Source: Methylobacterium gnaphalii
GTDB taxonomy: Bacteria; Pseudomonadota; Alphaproteobacteria; Rhizobiales; Beijerinckiaceae
Direction of reading: 5' to 3'
Length of the DNA stretch: 64,000 nt
Assembly (NCBI RefSeq): GCF_007992215.1
Contig: NZ_BJZV01000007.1
Span: 62,001 to 126,000, forward strand
The position numbers and the translations under genes are program-made. Positions 2,106 to 50,102 of the stretch are shown piece after piece. The notes under the pieces were generated by a model, which was not told the origin of the DNA, ran no database searches, and saw only the letters and a program-made list of their open reading frames with translations. Position 1 is the first letter of the stretch. Every line of letters begins with the position of its first letter.

Positions 2106-2191
2106 TTCCGTCAAGGCAGATTATCGGAAGCGCGTTGCGCTACGGACTGGCGATCAGATCACGCGGCTTCTTCGAAACTTCGATAGGCGAG
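2106..2191 (-). repeat. Copy B of the 86-bp repeat: 3' end and flank of the methylase gene
   Basis: Covers the last codons and stop (2159-2161) of the methylase gene plus flank. The outer part contains GCTTCCG (2104-2110) and CGGAAGC (2125-2131), able to form a hairpin between the converging stops of the genes at 1832 and 2159. See copy A at 1498-1583. Confidence 0.75.
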
Positions 2192-2992
2192 TTCTGCGAC
2201 CCGACCGGTGTGCGATTCCCAGCGCCGTAAGGCCGTGTCGACGTAGGTCGGATCGAGCTCGATGGCGTGGCAGATTCGACCGAGTTCTTCGGCAGCGATC
2301 AGGGTCGTCCCTGACCCAAGGAAGGGGTCGTAGACGCGATCGCCCGGCACGGTGTGGTTCAGGATCGGGCGGCACATCGCCTCGAGTGGCTTCTGCGTGC
2401 CGTGCCCGGTCTCGGAACGACGATGCGGAATGAGCCAGACCGTCGTCTGTTTCCGGCCGCCTGCCCAGCTGGCGGTGCGGCCTTTACGGACCGCGTACCA
2501 GCAAGGCTCGTGGCGCCAATGGTAATGCCCGCGGCTGATGATCAGCCTGCCCTTGTCCCAGATAATCTGAGCACGAGGCAGAAATCCTACAGCACGAAGG
2601 CTGGTCTCGACTTCGCTGGCGTGCAGCGCCGAATGCCACACGTACGCAACGTCACCCGGGAACAGAGCCCAAGCGTTGCGCCAGTCAGCGCAGTCGTCGT
2701 TCGCAACAGCACCGAGAGCACGGTTGCTGCCATTCGGCAGCACCTTCGCTCGCCATCCCGGATCGTAACTGACGCCATAGGGCGGGTCAGTCACCAGCAG
2801 GTGCGGACACTCGCCATTCAACGCGAGAGCAACGTCTGATGGGTCGGTCGCGTCCCCGCAAACGAGGCGATGGTCGCCGAGGAGCCAGACATCCCCGCGC
2901 CGGGCCATTGCCGACGCGGGGAGCTGTTCGACACCGGGAGCTGGTGTCGACGTCGGCCGGTTTTTCACGGCCGGAGAATGGTTTTCGGGCAT
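2159..2992 (-). CDS. DNA methyltransferase, beta-class (N6-adenine/N4-cytosine), phage
   Basis: 277 aa. Motif IV DPPY is at residues 69-72 and the SAM-binding motif I FLGSGTT at 224-230. The order catalytic motif then SAM motif marks a beta-class enzyme (the CcrM/Mod fold class). The N-terminal lead (GDVWLLGDHRLVCGDAT) is typical of phage ParB-methylase fusions in which a ParB-like domain precedes the methylase; here that domain is missing, so this is either a stand-alone version or a truncated one. Start is ATG 2992; a later in-frame Met (residue 29) is possible. Likely role: methylation of phage DNA for anti-restriction or regulation. No cognate restriction gene is nearby. Confidence 0.85.
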   Translation of the reverse strand: MPENHSPAVKNRPTSTPAPGVEQLPASAMARRGDVWLLGDHRLVCGDATDPSDVALALNGECPHLLVTDPPYGVSYDPGWRAKVLPNGSNRALGAVANDDCADWRNAWALFPGDVAYVWHSALHASEVETSLRAVGFLPRAQIIWDKGRLIISRGHYHWRHEPCWYAVRKGRTASWAGGRKQTTVWLIPHRRSETGHGTQKPLEAMCRPILNHTVPGDRVYDPFLGSGTTLIAAEELGRICHAIELDPTYVDTALRRWESHTGRVAELAYRSFEEAA

Positions 2993-14348: not shown

Positions 14349-14936
14349 CTACCCCGCCGCCATGAGGGTGGGCGGGGTCGGATCGAACTTCGTCAGTTCA
14401 TTCCCGAAGGCCTCCCAGCCAGGTCGGGAGACGCGCGCGAACAGATCCGCGCGGCGGAACAGGTGTGGGCAACGATCGTCGACGAGCGCGTAGAACTCCT
14501 CGGGCTTGCGCGAATGCTCGCGTCGCACGCCCTGGAAGAGGCCCGGAAAGGCCTTGTGCTGCGGCTCGCCGAAGGTCGCCAACAGGACAGGCTCACACAT
14601 GGCCCGCACGCGGTAGCCCGTGCCGATCGCCGGCTTGCCGCTAGGATGCCGCTTATCCCAGACGATGAGCGACTTGTACGTGAAGCCCCAGGTGCGAATG
14701 CAGGCGAGCTGCAGCTCGAGCAGCGGCCAGGTCCCGAAGCACAGCAGCAGGCAGTTGCCGGCCGCGAGCATGTGCACCGGGAACTGCCGTGCGATCTCGG
14801 CGGGCGGCAGGCAAGTGTACTGCGCGCCGGCACCCTTCTTCTCGCCGTTGACCGAGTACGACTCGTACTTCCACGGTGGGTCCGCGACGATCAGATCGTA
14901 GGAGAGCGGGCGCAGGGCGCCGAAGGGCCACGTCAC
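14349..14936 (-). CDS. MT-A70-family adenine methyltransferase
   Basis: 195 aa from GTG 14936 (GTGA overlap with rusA). The catalytic DPPW is at residues 19-22 after IVADPPWKYESY; the family-typical LIVWDK and CEPVLLATFG follow, then HSRKPEEFYALVD near the C-terminus. This is the length and motif order of phage MT-A70 enzymes that methylate adenine N6 in DNA. It sits with replication genes, so modification of nascent phage DNA is the likely role. One of three methylases in the prophage. Confidence 0.9.
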   Translation of the reverse strand: MTWPFGALRPLSYDLIVADPPWKYESYSVNGEKKGAGAQYTCLPPAEIARQFPVHMLAAGNCLLLCFGTWPLLELQLACIRTWGFTYKSLIVWDKRHPSGKPAIGTGYRVRAMCEPVLLATFGEPQHKAFPGLFQGVRREHSRKPEEFYALVDDRCPHLFRRADLFARVSRPGWEAFGNELTKFDPTPPTLMAAG

Positions 14937-18608: not shown

Positions 18609-18844
18609 CACGCGGCCTCCGAAGTACGCCGCCGACGGGCATTCCGCGCGGCGATGTCAGCGAGCACCTGATGCGTGATGCCAGCGAGCCCTCGCTCTTC
18701 AGCCTCCCGCACGGTGACGGACCAATACTCAGGGGGAAGGACGTCCCGGCTCTGCCACGAGCTGACGGTTCCGACCGGCCGGCCCGTGAGGGTCGACAGG
18801 CGCACATAGCCGATCGCGGCGATGATCTGAGCGAACGTCTCCAT
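18608..18844 (-). CDS. Cro-like repressor, probably from a leaderless transcript
   Basis: 78 aa from ATG 18844 (METFAQIIAAIGYVRLSTLTG). The N-terminal 45 residues fit a Cro-type helix-turn-helix: IAAIGYVRLSTLTGRPVGTVSSWQSRD, followed by LPPEYW, the pattern of small phage Cro proteins. ATGs at 18853 and 18862 lie inside or upstream of the promoter -10 box, so 18844 must be the start; it sits exactly where transcription should begin, implying a leaderless mRNA. First gene of the leftward lytic operon, divergent from the CI-type gene. Confidence 0.8.
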   Translation of the reverse strand: METFAQIIAAIGYVRLSTLTGRPVGTVSSWQSRDVLPPEYWSVTVREAEERGLAGITHQVLADIAARNARRRRTSEAA

Positions 18845-18851
18845 AGCGCGC

Positions 18852-18881
18852 ATAATCTGCACAACGCAGATTTTAAGGCAA
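18852..18881 (-). promoter_or_regulatory. Leftward early promoter PL with operator OL1
   Basis: On the minus strand: -35 TTGCCT (18881-18876), 18-bp spacer, -10 GATTAT (18857-18852). The spacer is almost filled by the palindrome AATCTGC-N5-GCAGATT (18854-18872). Its sequence read on the minus strand is identical to the operator of the rightward promoter at 20074-20092. Confidence 0.8.
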
Positions 18882-18897
18882 GGGGGTCGTTCTCAGA

Positions 18898-18926
18898 TTT
18901 GCAGACTAACTTTCTGCAAAGTGCAG
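18898..18926. promoter_or_regulatory. Operator OL2 upstream of the CI-type gene
   Basis: TTTGCAGA (18898-18905), 7 bp, TCTGCAAA (18913-18920), running into a further CTGCA-N3-TGCAG (18914-18926). Related half-sites to OL1 with different spacing; it overlaps the region immediately before ATG 18929, so it probably mediates autoregulation. Confidence 0.6.
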
Positions 18927-18928
18927 GA

Positions 18929-19627
18929 ATGGGCGACGAAAAGACCAAGCACGATCGGCTGCGCGAGGCGCGCGAGAAACGCTATCCGACCGCGAAGGCA
19001 GCGGCGGAGGCCATGGATGTGCCCTATGGGACCTACTCGGGACACGAAGCCGGATCCCGTGGGTTCACCGATGAGGAGGCGCGCCGCTACGCGAAGTTCT
19101 TCCACATCAGCGCTGGTAGCCTTGTCTTCGGAGAACACGGCACGTTGCCGCCGATGCTCGTCCCGTTCGGCGGTAGGATCGGCGCCGGAGGATCAATTGA
19201 TACCTCGAGCTGGCAGTCCGAACCGGGGATCGAATACGAGATCGAGACCGTAGGTCGCTTTCCCGATGCGGTGATCGCCTACCAGGTCGTCGGCGAATCG
19301 ATGCTGCCGATCTACGAGCCAGACACCGTCATCCTCTGCCGGTCTCACACCCGCGATGTCTCGTCCTACATAGGCAAGCGCGTCGCACTCGGTACGGTCG
19401 AGCACGGACGGCAGCTCAAAGTGCTGCTCGAGGGTAGTGCCGATCGGCGCTACGATCTTGAAAGCATCAATCGCACGGTCGCGACCATGCGGAACGTCGA
19501 AGTAGAGTGGGCGGCTCGGATCTGCGGCATCATTCCCGCCGATGAGTGGCACCTAATCGAGCGACGCGTCCAGCATGAGGAGCGCCTGAGAAAGCCATCC
19601 CAAAGGAAGCGCTCGACCAGTTCGTAA
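18929..19627 (+). CDS. CI-type repressor with S24 autopeptidase domain
   Basis: 232 aa from ATG 18929 with AGGA upstream. N-terminal helix-turn-helix (about residues 8-65: LREAREKRYPTAKAAAEAMD, PYGTYSGHEAG) and a C-terminal LexA/CI-type S24 domain: cleavage site Ala86-Gly87 in RIGAGGS, nucleophile Ser124 in VVGESMLPIY and probable general base Lys164 in RQLKVLL. RecA-stimulated self-cleavage, so SOS induction of the prophage, is expected for this family. It should bind the AATCTGC-type operators on both sides. It maintains lysogeny by silencing PL and PR. Confidence 0.92.
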   Translation: MGDEKTKHDRLREAREKRYPTAKAAAEAMDVPYGTYSGHEAGSRGFTDEEARRYAKFFHISAGSLVFGEHGTLPPMLVPFGGRIGAGGSIDTSSWQSEPGIEYEIETVGRFPDAVIAYQVVGESMLPIYEPDTVILCRSHTRDVSSYIGKRVALGTVEHGRQLKVLLEGSADRRYDLESINRTVATMRNVEVEWAARICGIIPADEWHLIERRVQHEERLRKPSQRKRSTSS

Positions 19628-20221: not shown

Positions 20222-20986
20222 GTGCGCGTCTCTCAGGACGTCCTGGCGGTCCTCGACCGCGCCACCTGCGAGGGCAACGCCCTCTCGCTCACCGATCTCG
20301 GTCAGCTCGACCGGAAGCTCTACACCGACACGAACAAGGTGCTCGAAGCCGCCGGCGGGAAGTGGAACCGCAAGGCCAAGGCTCACCTGTTCGACGGTGA
20401 CGCGGCCGAGGCCATCGAGCCGATCATTCTCACCGGCGAGATCGTCAGCATCCGCCAGGAGCTGCAGCAGTTCTACACGCCCGCGATCCTGGCCGAGCGT
20501 GTCATCTCCGAGGCCCGGATCGAGGCTGGCATGTCGGTGCTGGAACCGAGCGCCGGACGGGGCGCGCTTGCGGCTCCGGCATACCTGCTCGGTGCCTTGG
20601 TCGACTGCGTCGAGCTCGACCCGAAGAACGTCCATCTCCTCGCGTCGATCGCTTTCAACTCGGTTCTCGAAGGCGACTTCCTCGCTGTCGACTTCGATCC
20701 TGACTTCGATGACGGCTACGACCGCGTCGTGATGAACCCGCCCTTCACGCGGGGCCAAGACGTCCGGCACGTCACCCACGCCGTTCAGTTCCTGAAGCCC
20801 GGCGGCCGCCTCGTCGCGATCATGTCGGCGAGCATCCGGTTTCGGCAGGAGCCCCTGTTCGCCGGGTTCCGAGCCTTCCTCGACCAGCACAACGCGACGG
20901 TCGAAGACCTGCCCGTCGGATCGTTCAAGGCCTCCGGCACCGGCGTGAACGCCTGCCTCGTCTCCTTCGACGTCGGAGGCGAGTGA
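20222..20986 (+). CDS. SAM-dependent DNA methyltransferase (gamma-like), phage
   Basis: 254 aa from GTG 20222. Residues 80-100 (QELQQFYTPAILAERVI) are the typical lead of type I/N6-adenine methylases; motif I VLEPSAGRGALA is at 106-117, the acidic motif VELDP follows at 130-134, and the catalytic MNPPF is at 171-175, then LKPGGRLVAIMS. Order SAM motif before catalytic motif fits a gamma-class N6-adenine enzyme. Early in the rightward operon; likely modifies phage DNA. The N-terminal 75 residues are an extra domain of unknown role. Confidence 0.85.
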   Translation: MRVSQDVLAVLDRATCEGNALSLTDLGQLDRKLYTDTNKVLEAAGGKWNRKAKAHLFDGDAAEAIEPIILTGEIVSIRQELQQFYTPAILAERVISEARIEAGMSVLEPSAGRGALAAPAYLLGALVDCVELDPKNVHLLASIAFNSVLEGDFLAVDFDPDFDDGYDRVVMNPPFTRGQDVRHVTHAVQFLKPGGRLVAIMSASIRFRQEPLFAGFRAFLDQHNATVEDLPVGSFKASGTGVNACLVSFDVGGE

Positions 20987-26151: not shown

Positions 26152-26631
26152 ATGAACGCGCATGCGCATCACCTGACCCGCGACCAGGTCGTCGAACTCC
26201 TCGTAGAGCGGGACACCCTTCGAGAAACCGTGCGCCAGTACCAGGAGCTGCTGCGCCCTTCGCTGCCGATCCCGATGGCCTGGGGCATACGGGGCCAGTC
26301 GCTCGATCTCCTGCGTGCCCTGCGTGCGGCCAGCCCCAACGTGCTGCACCGGGAGCGCGGGATCATCGCCCTCTACGGCATGATCGACGGCGCCCCCGAT
26401 CAGAAGATCCTCGACGTCCTGATCTGCAAGCTTCGGCACAAGCTGAAATCCTCAGGAAGCGGCATCGAGATCCAGACGGTCTGGGGCCGGGGCTGGCTGA
26501 TGGACTCCGCAAGCGCAGCCCTATTCGACGAGGGCGCCGCCACCACCCAGGCGCGCCAGATCTCCATGGCCGAGGCAGTCGCGAACCATCGCGCGCGCAC
26601 CATGGGCATTCAGGCTGAGGCTCGGCCCTGA
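26152..26631 (+). CDS. Receiver-less CtrA-type winged-helix protein
   Basis: 159 aa from ATG 26152. The N-terminal 40 residues are a coiled coil (VELLVERDTLRETVRQYQEL), not a receiver: no phosphoacceptor Asp is present. Residues about 45-125 form an OmpR/PhoB-type winged helix that matches the DNA-binding end of host CtrA (49401-50102) in the recognition region: here LYGMIDGAPDQKILDVLICK with LRHKL and later TVWGRGW, against LYGGMD...[14 protein letters not shown] and TVWGRGY in CtrA. The C-terminus (last 35 residues) is unrelated. It should bind DNA without phosphorylation control. Overlaps the next gene by one base (TGATG). Confidence 0.85.
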   Translation: MNAHAHHLTRDQVVELLVERDTLRETVRQYQELLRPSLPIPMAWGIRGQSLDLLRALRAASPNVLHRERGIIALYGMIDGAPDQKILDVLICKLRHKLKSSGSGIEIQTVWGRGWLMDSASAALFDEGAATTQARQISMAEAVANHRARTMGIQAEARP

Positions 26632-27011
26632 TGAGCAAGCCCTGGCGCCTCACCGAAGCCGATCGCGAGCGTATCGCAACGATGCGCGAGGCCGGAAAGT
26701 CGTGCGGACAGATCGCAGCTGCGATTGGATGCTCGATCTCCGCCGTGTCGTGGCAGTGCCTCCGCCTCGGCGCCGAACCGCCGCACCCTCAGCGGCTGAA
26801 AGAAGTGCCGACCGTTCCCGGGTCCGTCCGTCGCGGCAACCACATAGTGCGCCGCTTTACGGCCGATGAGGATGCCAAGCTCGTCGAACTGGAGGCCGAA
26901 GGTCTCACCACCGCCGAGATTTCCCGTCGCCTCGGGCGGCCGCCCAACAGCGTGCTCGGCCGCATCATGACGCTCGCTCGGCGCGACGCCCGCATGGAGG
27001 CGAGCGCCTGA
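26631..27011 (+). CDS. Double helix-turn-helix protein with GcrA/Myb-like features
   Basis: 126 aa from ATG 26631. Two similar HTH units: residues about 4-50 (LTEADRERIATMREAGKSCG, then QIAAAIGCSISAVSWQCLRL) and about 75-120 (FTADEDAKLVELEAEGLTTA, then EISRRLGRPPNSVLGRIMTL). Each has the shape of the GcrA N-terminal domain, W/F-T-x-E/D, helix, EGL-S/T, QIA/EIS, LG, NAV, RLG. The resemblance to GcrA is by pattern only; homeodomain-like resolvase or Myb-type phage proteins are alternatives. It follows the CtrA-like gene and precedes the DnaA/ParB fusion in one operon. Confidence 0.72.
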   Translation: MSKPWRLTEADRERIATMREAGKSCGQIAAAIGCSISAVSWQCLRLGAEPPHPQRLKEVPTVPGSVRRGNHIVRRFTADEDAKLVELEAEGLTTAEISRRLGRPPNSVLGRIMTLARRDARMEASA

Positions 27012-27226
27012 TGTGCTGCCCCTGCGGATTCCTTTGCTGCGGCTCCGACGAGTTCGGCGGCTGCGGCTGTGACGACTGCCCGGACCCGCGCTGCCAGGAG
27101 CAGGCCGGAGAAGCCGCGCCGGTCGGGCTGCCCGTCAACGACGACGACGAGCTCGCCGACGACATGCCGCTCGCGGCGCTGCCGCGCGCGATCCGCCGCT
27201 TCCGCTGTGAGGAGGTACGCCCATGA
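27011..27226 (+). CDS. Small cysteine-rich protein
   Basis: 71 aa, ATG 27011 overlapping the previous stop (TGATG). The first 30 residues hold ten cysteines (MCCPCGFLCC, then CGCDDCPDPRC), able to bind one or two zinc ions; the rest is acidic then basic. Four-base overlap with the next gene. Function unknown. Confidence 0.6.
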   Translation: MCCPCGFLCCGSDEFGGCGCDDCPDPRCQEQAGEAAPVGLPVNDDDELADDMPLAALPRAIRRFRCEEVRP

Positions 27227-28596
27227 ATGTCCACGTCTCGGAGCCTAAGACGATCGAGGAAATGCACGCGCTGAAGAAGGCGGCCGACCAGCGCCAGGCG
27301 GAGCGTGCCAAAGAACGCGAGCGACAAGCTGCTGCAACGAAACTGCGTGTGGAACAGGAGCGGCAAGAGGCAGAAAAGGCCCTCGAGGACGAACAGGCAA
27401 AGCGCGCCGAGCGTGAAGCCCTTGCGGTCAGGCAGCGAGCGGCACGCAACGTTGCTCAGGACGGCCTACCGCGCGATCCCCGTGTGATCGTCAACGACGT
27501 CGCTGCGAAGCACGGTGTCGCTGCTGGAGACATCTTCAGCGATAGCCGCGTTGCCGTTGTCGTGGATGCGAGGCGGGCTGCCATTGGCGCGGTGCGGAAG
27601 GCTTGGCCGAATCGAAGCTTGCCGTGGCTCGCTGAGTTCTTCGGTCTCGATCACACCACTGTTCTCTTCCACTTGAGAAAGCTCGGTCTGCCGACCGGCG
27701 CCGCCAACAGAGCGCCGCCTCACACGCAGACCGGAGAGGCCGAAACCACGACCGTATCGGAGACGAGGACGCGCCGGATCGTGCCGCTTCAGGTCGTCGA
27801 CCTGGTGCCCGGCGGTGAGACCGACGCCGTGCCGCGCTTCGAGAATGTCGATCCTACCAAGCTACACGTCGACGGCGTCTATCAGCGCGATCTGTCCGAG
27901 AACTCGCGACGTCTCATTCGAAGGATCGTTGCGGAGTGGTCCTGGCGCGCGTTCAAGCCACCCGTCGTCGTCGAGGTCGACGGCACTCTGCACGTCATCG
28001 ATGGGCAACACACCGCAATCGCCGCTGCCACTCACCCCGAGGTCGATGAGATCCCGGTGATGATCGTCCGCGCCGATCGACGTGAGGACCGCGCGGATGC
28101 CTTCGTTCGGCACAATCGCGATCGTACGCAAATGACCGGCATGCAGATGCATTTCGGTCTGGTCGCTGCTGGCGATGAGGACTCGCTCACGCTGCAGCAG
28201 GTCTGCGAGCGCGCCGGTGCCCGGATCCTTCGCGGCAAACCGTCGAGGTACCAAGTCGGCGACACCACTGCCGTAGAGGTCCTGAAGGCACTTGTACGTC
28301 GCCGGCATGCCAAAGGAGCGCGAGAGGTTGTTCAGACCTGCGTGGAAGCAGGCCTCGCTCCGATCTCGGCCGCCGCGCTGAAGGCGGTCGAAACGCTGCT
28401 GTTCGAAGCAAAGCATGCCGGTCACTACAGCCGTGAAGCGCTGGCTACGACGCTGCGGAACCTCGGCGCGTCCGCCGAGCGACAGGCTGCGCTGGTAGCC
28501 GCCGAGCACCAGGTCCAGAAGTGGCGCGGCCTCGCCATCGTCCTGGTCCGAAACACCCGAAAAGCCCGGCGTCCCGCATCGTCGGCCGCGGCATAG
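27223..28596 (+). CDS. Coiled coil - DnaA domain IV - ParB-nuclease-like fusion
   Basis: 457 aa from ATG 27223. Residues about 10-75 are a highly charged coiled coil. Residues about 85-148 match DnaA domain IV: VIVNDVAAKHGVAAGDIFSD, ARRAAIGAVRKAWPNRS and the hallmark LAEFFGLDHTTVLFHLRKL (DHTTV is the DnaA-box recognition signature). Residues about 195-275 fit a ParB/Srx N-terminal domain: VYQRDLSENSRRLIRRIV, PPVVVEVDGTLHVIDGQHTA. The remainder is helical. No AAA+ domain is present, so it cannot act as an initiator like DnaA; it could occupy DnaA boxes. Such a domain combination is uncommon. Confidence 0.8.
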   Translation: MNVHVSEPKTIEEMHALKKAADQRQAERAKERERQAAATKLRVEQERQEAEKALEDEQAKRAEREALAVRQRAARNVAQDGLPRDPRVIVNDVAAKHGVAAGDIFSDSRVAVVVDARRAAIGAVRKAWPNRSLPWLAEFFGLDHTTVLFHLRKLGLPTGAANRAPPHTQTGEAETTTVSETRTRRIVPLQVVDLVPGGETDAVPRFENVDPTKLHVDGVYQRDLSENSRRLIRRIVAEWSWRAFKPPVVVEVDGTLHVIDGQHTAIAAATHPEVDEIPVMIVRADRREDRADAFVRHNRDRTQMTGMQMHFGLVAAGDEDSLTLQQVCERAGARILRGKPSRYQVGDTTAVEVLKALVRRRHAKGAREVVQTCVEAGLAPISAAALKAVETLLFEAKHAGHYSREALATTLRNLGASAERQAALVAAEHQVQKWRGLAIVLVRNTRKARRPASSAAA

Positions 28597-28599
28597 ACG

Positions 28600-29082
28600 A
28601 TGTCCGCGCCCTTCTGCACCGACTGCGGCACCGAGGCCGCCATGATGCTGGGCTGGGAGGCTGTCGTCTCCGATCCTAGCCTTGCCGACGCGCGGGTGTG
28701 GTCGTGTCCAGTCTGCAGGGAATCGTGGTGCCGGCACGATCCGATCTCGGATCGGCCCATTGGCACACCAGCCGGCGAGGAGACGCGGACCGCCCGTGCG
28801 TTGCTGGCTGAGCGCCAGATTGCGCGGATCATCGCCGAGGCGCTCGCTCAGAACCCGAACGCCAGTGCGCTCGCGGATGACAGGATCACAGGATTTACCG
28901 CCGCGCTGCTCGGCATCGAGCGCGGGCACGCGGCGATCGAGCAGCTCGACCTCGAGCAATGCCGGAAGCTTTGGCACGCGCTCCACCGCGCCTCCTACGC
29001 CGACATCGTCCGCCATGCGCAGACCTACCGTCCGGGCAAACCGACCCAGTCATCCCTCACCGAACAAGGAGCGGCAGCATGA
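28600..29082 (+). CDS. Zinc-finger-containing protein, DUF3268-like
   Basis: 160 aa from ATG 28600. N-terminal zinc knuckle CTDCG...CPVCRESWCRHD with two C-x2-C pairs, and a spacer LADARVWSCPVC that matches phage zinc-finger proteins of the DUF3268 type; C-terminal helical domain. Its stop overlaps the ParB start (ATGA). Likely nucleic acid binding. Confidence 0.72.
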   Translation: MSAPFCTDCGTEAAMMLGWEAVVSDPSLADARVWSCPVCRESWCRHDPISDRPIGTPAGEETRTARALLAERQIARIIAEALAQNPNASALADDRITGFTAALLGIERGHAAIEQLDLEQCRKLWHALHRASYADIVRHAQTYRPGKPTQSSLTEQGAAA

Positions 29083-30950
29083 AGCCCCAACCAGCCTCGT
29101 ATCTCTTTGCCGCGACCCAGGCGGTGCCGCTCGATCTCCTCGACTTCGGGCACGGCGAAACCGGCGTGAGCGTCAACGCCAGGACCATGGGTCAGGATGA
29201 GGCGATCGACGAACTGGCGGCGTCCATCCTCGCCCACGGTCTGATCCAGCCGCTCGTCGTCCGTCGCACCGAGGGTGATGAGCTTCGCTTCACGGTGATC
29301 GCCGGCAACCGCCGGCTCGCCGCCCTGCAGAAGCTGGCGGCTGCGGGAAAGCTGCCGGAGCCGAACCCGCTCATCGATGTGGTGGCGCGCGATCTCGCCG
29401 ACGGCGAGGCGCTTGAGGTGTCGCTCGCGGAAAACCTCAACCGGCTGCCGCTTCACCCGGTCGACCAATACGAGGTTTTCGCCCGACTCGGCACCGGCAA
29501 GAACGCGATCAGTGAGGCCGCGATCGCCACGCGTTTCGGCATGCCTCGCAAGGAGGTGAAACAGCGCCTGGCGCTCGGTCGCCTCGCTCCTGAGATCCTC
29601 GACGCCTGGCGCAAGGGGAAGATCCACGCCGAGACCGCCCAGGCCTTCACGCTGGCGCGCGACGTCGAGCACCAGCTCGAGGTGTTCAGGCGGCTTGGGA
29701 AGGAAGGCGGCGTCTATCCGTACCGCGTCCGGGAGGAGTTCTCGAAGACCTTCGCGAGCGCGAGCGGGAAGCTCGTCGAATTCGTCGGTCTCGATGCCTA
29801 CAAGGCCGCCGGCGGCACGGTGCGCACCGACCTGTTCAGCGACCGCAAGGATCTCGCCAACCCCGAGATCATTGCGCGGCTTGTCCAAGAGAAGACGGAA
29901 TCGCTCGTCGATGAGCTGAAGGCCGAAGGCTGGTCCTGGGTCGCGCTCGCTGACGACGTCAGCATGGACCATTACCTCTGGCCGAAGATCACGCCCGGCG
30001 AGATGCAGTTCACGAAGGGCGAGAAAGCCGACCTGGCTGAGAACGAGGCGCGCCTTCGCGAGAGCAGCTGCATCGGTGATGAGCGCCTCAGGATCACTGC
30101 CGAGTGTCGGGAGATCGAGCAGGCGGCGGAGGCCCGCGCCTACGCCGACGATGACCGGGCTCGCGCCGGCGCCATCATCGACATCGGCTGGGGCGGTAAG
30201 GTCACCATCAGGCGCGGTGTCCTCAAGCCAGGCGCCAAGGCGTCGGCCGGCGAACCAGCGCCGGCGGTAGAGGAGGGGCCGAAGCCTCTCAGCCAGACAC
30301 TCGCCCACACGCTGTCCTGCCAGCTGTCCGACGCGCTCGCCGGCAGCCTCGCGACCGATCCGGATCTCGCGCTGTCGGTCATGCTGGCCACGTTCCTGAC
30401 CCACTCGGGATCGCCGTGCATCGTCCGCCACTCGGGACGCGCGGCCGGCCCGCTCAAGGAACGCGTGGCCGAACTGCAGCTCGGCAAGTTCCCTGAGGTC
30501 CTGCAGACGGTACGGGACATGCCGCAGGACGATCGCCTCGAGCTGCTCGCGGCCGTCGCCGGCGCGGCGATCGACGCCTCGAGCACGGCGTTCGGCGCGA
30601 TGTCCAGTGTCGCGAAAGGCGTCGACGCGGCCTCGGTCTCAGCCGTGTTCGCCGCGATCGATCCGGACGAGGTTCGGCACCAGGTCGGAGAGCAGTTTGA
30701 TGCCGTAGCCTACTTCGCCGGCGCGTCGAAGGCGCACGCGATCGCAGCGCTCACCGAGATCCACGGACGCAACACCTGCACCTCGACGAAGAAGGGCGAC
30801 ATCGCTGCGCTCGCTGAGATCGAGGCGACGAAGCACGGCTGGCTGCCGACCGAGTTGCGCACCGTCCACTACACAGGCCCGGGCGCCGCGAAGCCGAAGG
30901 CGAAGCGTGGCTCGAAGCGGTCGGCAGCCGCACTGCAGGAAGCGGCGTGA
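29079..30950 (+). CDS. ParB/RepB-family partition-like protein, phage
   Basis: 623 aa from ATG 29079. ParB N-terminal domain at about residues 30-130 (HGLIQPLVVRR, FTVIAGNRRLAAL, LAENLNRLPLHPVDQYEVF) and a central HTH (ISEAAIATRFGMPRKEVKQR, LGRLAPEILDAWRKGKIHAE). The long C-terminal half is not part of canonical ParB; it resembles plasmid/phage ParB-like proteins of 600-700 aa whose role is debated. No ParA gene lies nearby, which argues against a classical partition system and for transcription or nuclease functions. Confidence 0.88.
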   Translation: MKPQPASYLFAATQAVPLDLLDFGHGETGVSVNARTMGQDEAIDELAASILAHGLIQPLVVRRTEGDELRFTVIAGNRRLAALQKLAAAGKLPEPNPLIDVVARDLADGEALEVSLAENLNRLPLHPVDQYEVFARLGTGKNAISEAAIATRFGMPRKEVKQRLALGRLAPEILDAWRKGKIHAETAQAFTLARDVEHQLEVFRRLGKEGGVYPYRVREEFSKTFASASGKLVEFVGLDAYKAAGGTVRTDLFSDRKDLANPEIIARLVQEKTESLVDELKAEGWSWVALADDVSMDHYLWPKITPGEMQFTKGEKADLAENEARLRESSCIGDERLRITAECREIEQAAEARAYADDDRARAGAIIDIGWGGKVTIRRGVLKPGAKASAGEPAPAVEEGPKPLSQTLAHTLSCQLSDALAGSLATDPDLALSVMLATFLTHSGSPCIVRHSGRAAGPLKERVAELQLGKFPEVLQTVRDMPQDDRLELLAAVAGAAIDASSTAFGAMSSVAKGVDAASVSAVFAAIDPDEVRHQVGEQFDAVAYFAGASKAHAIAALTEIHGRNTCTSTKKGDIAALAEIEATKHGWLPTELRTVHYTGPGAAKPKAKRGSKRSAAALQEAA

Positions 30951-35194: not shown

Positions 35195-35260
35195 GCTGTA
35201 GTTACTGGAAGATTTGGTGAGCGCGCTGGGACTCGAACCCAGGACCTACAGATTAAAAGT
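35195..35260. other. Presumed right attachment site overlapping tRNA-Lys 3' end
   Basis: Integrase gene stops at 35145 and the tRNA-Lys 3' end is at 35215, with no gene between. Phages that use a tRNA gene regenerate its 3' part, so the identity segment should begin close to 35215 and extend into the T-arm. The partner copy is off the left edge, so the limits are approximate. Confidence 0.5.
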
Positions 35261-35290
35261 CCGTTGCTCTACCAGCTGAGCTACGCGCTC
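35215..35290 (-). tRNA. tRNA-Lys (anticodon TTT)
   Basis: 76 nt. Acceptor GAGCGCG...CGCGCTC, D-arm AGCTCAGCTGGTAGAGC, anticodon loop CTTTTAA, T-arm GGTTCGAGTCC, and an encoded CCA at 35217-35215. The gene is intact although the prophage abuts its 3' end. Clearly the prophage target. Confidence 0.95.
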
Positions 35291-49400: not shown

Positions 49401-50102
49401 ATGCGCGTACTTCTGATCGAGGACGATGGCGCTACGGCGCAGAGCATCGAGTTGATGCTCAAGTCCGAGAACTTCAACACCTACACCACCGACCTCGGTG
49501 AAGAGGGCGTCGATCTCGGCAAGCTCTACGACTACGACATCATCCTCCTCGACCTGAACCTGCCCGATATGTCGGGCTACGAGGTCCTCCGCTCGTTGCG
49601 CGTCGCCAAGGTGAAGACGCCGATCCTGATCCTCTCCGGCATGGCCGGCATCGAGGACAAGGTGAAGGGCCTCGGCTTCGGCGCCGACGACTACCTCACT
49701 AAGCCATTCCACAAGGACGAGTTGGTCGCTCGCATTCATGCGATCGTGCGCCGCTCCAAGGGCCACGCGCAGTCGGTCATCACCACGGGCGACCTCATCG
49801 TCAATCTCGACCAGAAGACGGTCGAAGTCTCCGGCAGCCGCGTGCACCTCACGGGCAAGGAGTACCAGATGCTGGAGCTGCTCTCGCTCCGGAAGGGCAC
49901 CACGCTCACCAAGGAGATGTTCCTCAACCATCTCTATGGCGGCATGGACGAGCCCGAGCTCAAGATCATCGACGTGTTCATCTGCAAGCTGCGTAAGAAG
50001 CTCGCCAACGCCTCCCAAGGCAAGAACTACATCGAGACCGTCTGGGGCCGCGGCTACGTGCTGCGCGAGCCGATGGAAGGTGAGGACCGCATCGCGGTCT
50101 GA
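49401..50102 (+). CDS. ctrA: Cell-cycle master response regulator CtrA
   Basis: 233 aa from ATG 49401 (GGGGA upstream). Receiver domain: [20 protein letters not shown], phosphoacceptor Asp51 in [42 protein letters not shown]. OmpR-type winged helix: [47 protein letters not shown]. The divergence between CtrA orthologues is low and this sequence is unmistakable. It controls cell division, flagella and replication timing via TTAA-N7-TTAA sites. Confidence 0.98.

Follow-up and report, generated by a model that had tools for sequence, protein, structure and literature searches.

Known phage-encoded relatives of cell-cycle regulators

Phage-encoded relatives of the alphaproteobacterial cell-cycle regulators CtrA, GcrA and DnaA have been described in several systems, and the present analysis concerns an operon of a Methylobacterium gnaphalii prophage in which a CtrA-type domain and a DnaA domain IV stand in a row. 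The operon lies in a stretch of 64,000 nucleotides, here called the window (C7:62001-126000 of the 4.78-Mb genome), and its genes at 26152, 26631 and 27223 are designated P0001, P0002 and P0003. Roseobacter phage RDJLPhi1 carries a receiver-less CtrA gene beside GafA, as described in 2019 (PMC6363796), and GafA and GafY-GafZ are activators of gene transfer agents (GTAs) (PMC6363796, PMC9632790, PMC11150451). GafY of Caulobacter, a homolog of DnaA domain IV, binds GTA promoters and was proposed not to act at oriC (PMC9632790). A phage GcrA homolog was published in 2012 for Caulobacter phage phiCbK (PMC3556154), GcrA and DnaA appear in table lines on phiLM21-like prophages (PMC12429752), and host CtrA is itself known to control phages (PMC9437464, PMC10589892). 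In phages, proteins that join DUF6551 to the ParB-CTPase fold were reported to bind CTP or ATP (PMC12704722); the main text of that paper contains no occurrence of DnaA or CtrA.

The RDJL phages resemble the present locus in that a receiver-less CtrA domain adjoins a protein with a DnaA-like helix-turn-helix (HTH), both in RDJLPhi1 and in RDJL Phi 2 (gp32/gp33, KT266805); gp32 matches Trans_reg_C at 1.8e-15, and P0001 matches PHROG 31800. They differ in the second protein: gp33, which we infer to be the GafA of PMC6363796, combines DUF6456 with an HTH that matches Bac_DnaA_C under the cut-off, whereas the DnaA domain IV of P0003 exceeds the cut-off, is fused to DUF6551 and comes without DUF6456. 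GafA and GafYZ share with P0003 the character of a phage-derived regulator with a DnaA-IV-like DNA-binding domain, but GafA adds a sigma-like part where P0003 adds a ParB-like part, and P0003 retains the motif DHTTV. The GcrA of phiCbK is a phage copy of a core cell-cycle regulator, as are the GcrA genes near CtrA-like genes in other loci, whereas P0002 of the window is not GcrA. P0003 belongs to the same DUF6551 family as the ParB-CTPase fusions in the extracts of PMC12704722, and P0001 has the winged helix and recognition helix of host CtrA but no receiver. Searches of the prophage with RDJL gp33 and PF20057 for a GafA-like gene found none.

The operon is best explained, tentatively and with a likelihood somewhat short of even, as one instance of a recurrent alphaproteobacterial phage regulatory cassette that works as a phage-owned transcription switch. 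Sequence comparison establishes which domains are present, that receiver and AAA+ parts are missing, and that the set recurs and occurs in fused form; the recurrent grouping and fusion of such parts suggests a viral control module made from host cell-cycle machinery. In the extracts of open literature searched, a body with supplements and most subscription papers outside it, no description was found of the CtrA-DUF6551 pair, of the DnaA-IV/DUF6551 and GcrA/DnaA-IV fusions or of the trio; the components are known singly, and what looks new is the cassette as a recurrent set, along with the fusions.

A CtrA-type domain and a DnaA domain IV cut from their control parts

P0001 (26152..26631, plus strand) matches Pfam Trans_reg_C over residues 50-116 (3.4e-10) and gives no Pfam match to Response_reg, the receiver domain bearing the phospho-acceptor aspartate, and is therefore called CtrA-like rather than CtrA. 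The CtrA model ranks first in NCBIfam (1.2e-11, the second model reaching 1.7e-5), all scores lying far under the whole-protein cut-offs, as expected for a protein with only one of the domains. The genome yields 16 OmpR-type matches, one being P0001 itself; among the 11 compared with it (four were left out), host CtrA is the best (5e-12, followed by 0.003), with about 40% identity over 73 amino acids, and the recognition helix KILDVLICKLRHKL shares 11 of its 14 residues with host CtrA. When a tree of the DNA-binding domains is rooted on a single host paralog, all 124 phage rows join 23 host CtrA rows in one group, apart from 22 other rows (support 0.94), with P0001 in a 48-tip group together with the 23 host CtrA rows (support 0.87). 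Of 35 rows bearing the label host CtrA, twelve lie outside the CtrA group and are probably other response regulators; no split parts all 35 from the paralogs, and the local CtrADBD profile was built from all 35. Host CtrA is the best match for 53 of 66 phage CtrA-like proteins of DUF6551 loci, and P0001 has matches in nine records of named phages.

P0003 (27223..28596, plus strand) combines a DnaA domain IV at residues 88-153 (Bac_DnaA_C, PF08299; 5.6e-9, 36.3 bits against a cut-off of 31.5) with a DUF6551/ParB-like domain at residues of about 180-450, within which residues 219-414 match PF20188 (2.5e-6, 27.6 bits, just over the cut-off of 26.8). Domain IV is the only part of DnaA matched in Pfam, with no match to the AAA+ domain III or to domain I. 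Among solved structures, chain 1j1v_A ranks first by sequence (E 0.0042); it is a DnaA, which we take to be the E. coli DnaA domain IV-DNA complex. DHTTV, the base-contacting motif of DnaA domain IV, is retained in P0003; among 13 aligned phage relatives DHTT is retained in loci L138, L152, L154 and L241, and the remainder vary it. Elsewhere in the order, the best relatives of the DUF6551 part reach 40-56% identity; a DUF6551 profile finds no relative among known structures by sequence, and a DUF6551 relative in L096 matches the ParB-like PHROG 1033 (1.4e-17). Five records of named phages match P0003, all within the DUF6551 part.

P0003 was rejected as a conserved fusion: among the matches listed from 297 genomes of the order, with up to five candidates per genome scored, its own genome alone matches both halves, and the halves occur separately in other genomes. 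In a prophage with partial synteny from the same genus (L110:8581-9626), a DnaA-IV protein standing by itself (7.9e-10) precedes what may be a winged helix (Trans_reg_C 4.3e-4, under cut-off).

These results agree with much of the sequence-only reading of this DNA, which had named a CtrA-type winged helix without receiver and a DnaA domain IV fused to a ParB-like domain, and had regarded them as copies stripped of control parts. The Trans_reg_C and NCBIfam CtrA matches without Response_reg bear out the first, both domains of P0003 exceed their cut-offs, and the control parts are indeed missing, the receiver from P0001 and the AAA+ domain from P0003. Its coordinates and its view of a coupled operon are also correct: the genes overlap by TGATG at 26631 and 27011 and by ATGA at 27223, and a 1-bp gap precedes 26152.

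Recurrence of the domain set in other phage loci

The survey of DUF6551 loci covered 61 genome, 80 viral and 12 other loci, 153 in total, forming 103 clusters at 90% (102 without the window), and was set against 80 phage loci picked by the unrelated gene DUF5131, a control set that was not de-duplicated. The viral scans behind the counts took the best 80 of 105 DUF6551 loci and the best 80 of at least 579 control loci, and many flanks in all locus sets end at contig ends. A CtrA-like gene adjoins DUF6551 on the same strand within 600 bp in 54 of the 102 non-redundant clusters, one of them as a fusion, and overlaps the DUF6551 end in genomes G097, G235 (twice), G017, G243 and G250. Of the 54 CtrA-bearing clusters, 11 have DnaA-IV on the same strand at a distance of up to 5 kb, against none of the 48 others (Fisher 6.6e-4), and none of the 80 control loci has it anywhere in the locus (2.3e-5 against 11/54); all 11 DnaA-IV proteins exceed the curated cut-offs. 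The control loci hold a CtrA-like gene in two cases, one beside DUF6551, and GcrA in three.

GcrA is not significantly enriched in the CtrA-bearing DUF6551 clusters (4/54 against 3/48; 6/54 against 3/80 controls, p 0.16), the count of six being taken anywhere in the locus on either strand and thus including L192 (opposite strand) and L214 (an open reading frame, ORF, of 97 amino acids), both outside the four. Around CtrA-focal loci GcrA occurs in 10 of 71 clusters against 3 of 80 controls (p 0.039), a weak result because the counts were hand-read after viewing and the CtrA proteins of L327 and L328 have receivers. GcrA genes at Pfam level stand near CtrA-like genes in L213, L320, L292, L115, L296 and L130.

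Several loci join the same domains in other orders. In L099 (genome G235), a 189-amino-acid protein combines a GcrA HTH (1.9e-7) with DnaA-IV (7.4e-11), 1.2 kb ahead of DUF6551 and a CtrA-like gene. L325 holds a second GcrA-HTH/DnaA-IV fusion (1.5e-10 and 1e-17), 1.4 kb ahead of a CtrA-like gene, with an N6_N4 methylase after it and no DUF6551 detected at the locus; both fusions lack DHTT. The row in L213 runs N6_N4 methylase, DUF6551, CtrA-like and true GcrA (1.6e-36). For both methylases CcrM is the top NCBIfam model, at 54.9 bits in L325 and 69.9 bits in L213, far under the cut-off of 830. DUF6551 is fused to a CtrA-like domain in L228 (local profiles; Pfam Trans_reg_C), and one protein of Paracoccus phage R3 unites DUF6456 (just over cut-off), a CtrA domain and an RDJL gp33-type HTH. 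The prophages of L099 and L101 are Mu-like (GemA, DUF3164), with the CtrA-like gene just upstream of gemA in both, near the position of the middle regulator mor of Mu. As a separate observation, two tandem CtrA-like winged-helix genes follow DUF6551 in L121, L129, L137, L180, L183, L202, L205 and L215.

The double helix-turn-helix protein

P0002 (26631..27011, plus strand) consists of two HTHs only, in 126 amino acids, without the Cys-containing C-terminal domain of GcrA. It reaches 7.7e-4 and 20.3 bits against Pfam GcrA (PF07750), below the curated cut-off of 26.9; the generic models HTH_38 (5.8e-11) and HTH_23 (1.1e-9) score better, the resolvase model HTH_7 scores worse (0.02), and a profile built locally from host GcrA finds nothing at E up to 10. 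By hhalign each half scores 93-94% against the host GcrA HTH and 0.1-6% against DnaA and CtrA, a comparison made without an unrelated trihelical HTH as control. At family level P0002 was thus rejected as GcrA, being under cut-off, unmatched by the host-GcrA profile and better fitted by generic HTHs; of the earlier description of a double HTH with a GcrA-like pattern, the two HTHs are real and the GcrA part is not confirmed.

Its relatives are few: one at 53% identity in a genome of its own genus and one at 48% in a genome of its family, a sole phage-record match (MT835930.1, 42% identity), and matches at E up to 1e-3 in 10 of 297 genomes of the order, its own included, with only two others below 1e-30. 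A single-sequence search of viral contigs with P0002 gave no match. The family occurs near a CtrA gene in L313 and weakly in L330 (9e-5); the L313 relative reaches 22.3 bits against GcrA, under cut-off, with a better score for a resolvase HTH model. With few genomes, one phage record and only L313 and L330, co-travelling of P0002 with P0001 and P0003 finds little support. In L313 (196-1853, a viral contig), the CtrA lying 606 bp from the P0002-family double HTH is complete and has its receiver.

The expectation of the sequence-only reading that the three genes would recur together holds for CtrA, DUF6551 and DnaA-IV; it finds little support for P0002, and GcrA enrichment is weak.

Target sites and competing explanations

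As a phage-owned transcription switch, the cassette would consist of DNA-binding domains of host regulators (the CtrA winged helix, DnaA-IV and, in some other phages, GcrA) cut from their control domains and set beside, or fused to, the ParB-like DUF6551 protein. The CtrA-type and DnaA-IV-type proteins would mark phage promoters, perhaps also some host promoters, without CckA phosphorylation or DnaA-ATP, and the ParB-like part may make binding dependent on nucleoside triphosphate (NTP) or let it spread, the outcome being phage gene expression uncoupled from the host cell-cycle phase. The comparison is with GafA/GafYZ and CtrA in GTAs and RDJLPhi1, and it is because of the CtrA/GafA pair of RDJLPhi1 and the promoter binding of GafY, as described in the extracts, that this switch is favoured. 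If the cassette acts on phage promoters, it bears on the origin of GafA/CtrA control of gene transfer agents.

Several results weigh against such a switch. The whole prophage contains no CtrA box (TTAAN7TTAA) and no DnaA box (TTATNCACA, TGATCCACA), and CtrA boxes show no clear excess in the 54 CtrA-bearing loci (2 against 0.6 expected, with a similar ratio in the 48 others), so host-type targets on phage DNA are not visible. The prophage has no DUF6456/GafZ, the single PF20057 match of the genome lying outside it on contig C1. Retention of DHTT in P0003 and the four loci named above would, by sequence, fit binding to host DnaA boxes. P0001 clusters with host CtrA and not with most DUF6551-adjacent proteins (support 0.87), and its pairing here may therefore be an independent assembly; another host regulator outscores CtrA for 13 of the 66 phage CtrA-like proteins. 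Phage promoters with host-type CtrA or DnaA boxes, sought in the prophage and the 54-locus scan, were not found. One-mismatch DnaA boxes number two in the window part of the prophage (0.4 expected), and TTAAC stands at 0.55 of expectation in the CtrA-bearing loci against 0.69 and 0.74.

GANTC is depleted in the prophage (89 against 386 expected) and less so in adjacent host DNA (97 against 287). It stands at 0.23-0.26 of expectation in DUF6551 loci and at 0.56 in control phage loci, a depletion that is not cassette-specific because it extends to DUF6551 loci without CtrA-like genes.

The sequence-only reading had interpreted the operon as a takeover of the host, in which control-free copies bind host CtrA and DnaA sites (GcrA sites in some phages) and hold the cell in a phase favourable to the phage. 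This is a live rival, if rather less likely than the switch: the recognition helix kept in P0001 (11/14) makes host sites possible targets, P0003 keeps DHTT, and TTAAN7TTAAC has 33 exact matches at 24 distinct places in the host genome against 5 for the reversed control pattern. The groupings in L325 (GcrA/DnaA-IV fusion, CtrA-like gene and methylase) and L213 (methylase, DUF6551, CtrA-like gene and true GcrA) also fit it. Against it, TTATCCACA is not enriched in the host (3 against 14 for the control), both GcrA/DnaA-IV fusions have lost DHTT, P0002 is not GcrA, and GafY, the nearest studied phage-derived DnaA-IV homolog, has been proposed not to act on oriC (PMC9632790). That the prophage has no CtrA box lends the takeover weak support and decides nothing: at a density of 24 places in 4.78 Mb, chance would put about 0.35 into its 68.9 kb, and the 57 kb of host DNA next to it likewise have none. 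Of that interpretation the CtrA and DnaA-IV identities, the lost control domains, the non-random co-occurrence and the fusions are supported, and P0002 as GcrA is not.

An extended form, which appears decidedly unlikely, would be a portable, signal-blind cell-cycle circuit of DnaA-IV, GcrA HTH, CtrA winged helix and, in L325 and L213, an N6_N4 methylase of the CcrM kind, joined to a ParB-fold NTP switch, that reads host cell-cycle sites and overrides the cycle; P0003 might then act as a clamp of the ParB type that loads at DnaA boxes in place of parS. The odds of both this override and the takeover are slightly lowered because the CtrA-box absence is at chance level and the methylases match CcrM only distantly. 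If the cassette acts on host sites, phages would have reassembled pieces of the alphaproteobacterial cell-cycle circuit time and again, leaving out its brakes, and such proteins would be tools to part DNA binding from signalling by CtrA, GcrA and DnaA. Whether phage or host promoters are the targets, the CtrA-DUF6551 pair and the GcrA/DnaA-IV fusions give a testable function for little-studied phage genes.

A replication module, in which P0003 and stand-alone or complete DnaA proteins bring replication machinery to a phage origin and the CtrA-like protein regulates locally, is improbable. A complete DnaA does lie 1-1.3 kb downstream of the CtrA-like/DUF6551 pair in L127 and L184, that of L127, which lies in a bacterial contig, possibly being the host's own dnaA, and a DnaB helicase lies downstream in L320. 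P0003, however, has no AAA+ domain, no consensus DnaA box occurs in the prophage, and the two carriers checked, L099 and L101, are like Mu, which replicates by transposition.

Chance neighbourhood of ordinary phage DNA-binding proteins sharing common folds is very improbable overall: the weak GcrA enrichment and the generic P0002, for which it stands, favour it, but it is hard to hold for CtrA, DUF6551 and DnaA-IV, given the adjacency in 54/102 clusters, the DnaA-IV count of 11/54 against 0/80 and the fusions, which combine one small set of domains in varying order, something that chance does not explain.

Prophage and surrounding genes

A 47-bp repeat at the 3' end of tRNA-Lys (35215-35290), serving as attR at 35214..35260, has a second copy at C7:28331, and window positions 1-35260 therefore form the right part of a 68.9-kb prophage inserted at this tRNA gene. 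Between P0002 and P0003, and coupled to both, lies a Cys-rich ORF of 71 amino acids (27011..27226, plus strand), for which no Pfam or PHROG family was matched at the limits used. The same operon continues downstream with a ParB-family protein (29076..30950, plus strand; ParB_N 2.6e-13, TIGR00180 3.5e-22), and an S24 peptidase/HTH repressor-like prophage protein lies upstream (18671..19627, plus strand; Peptidase_S24 1.7e-5). Host ctrA, the reference for P0001, is outside the prophage, 14 kb past its end (49401..50102, plus strand).

Three methylase-like genes are present, in keeping with the three DNA methylases claimed earlier for the prophage: an N6_N4-type DNA methylase (2159..2992, minus strand; PF01555, 2.2e-19), an MT-A70-type methylase (14349..14936, minus strand; PF05063, 3.7e-18), relatives of which have a DUF6551 gene less than 2 kb away in L001, L101 and L104, and a third methyltransferase-like gene (20222..20986, plus strand), with PHROG matches annotated as DNA methyltransferase, the best such at 2.2e-39, and only weak RsmA/Erm-like matches in NCBIfam. 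In a syntenic prophage of the same genus (L106:6257-8458), a large ORF downstream of the P0002 relative resembles a cytosine methylase by eye. The host genome holds a second GcrA-family gene on another contig (G000:C22:10183-10665, 48 bits).

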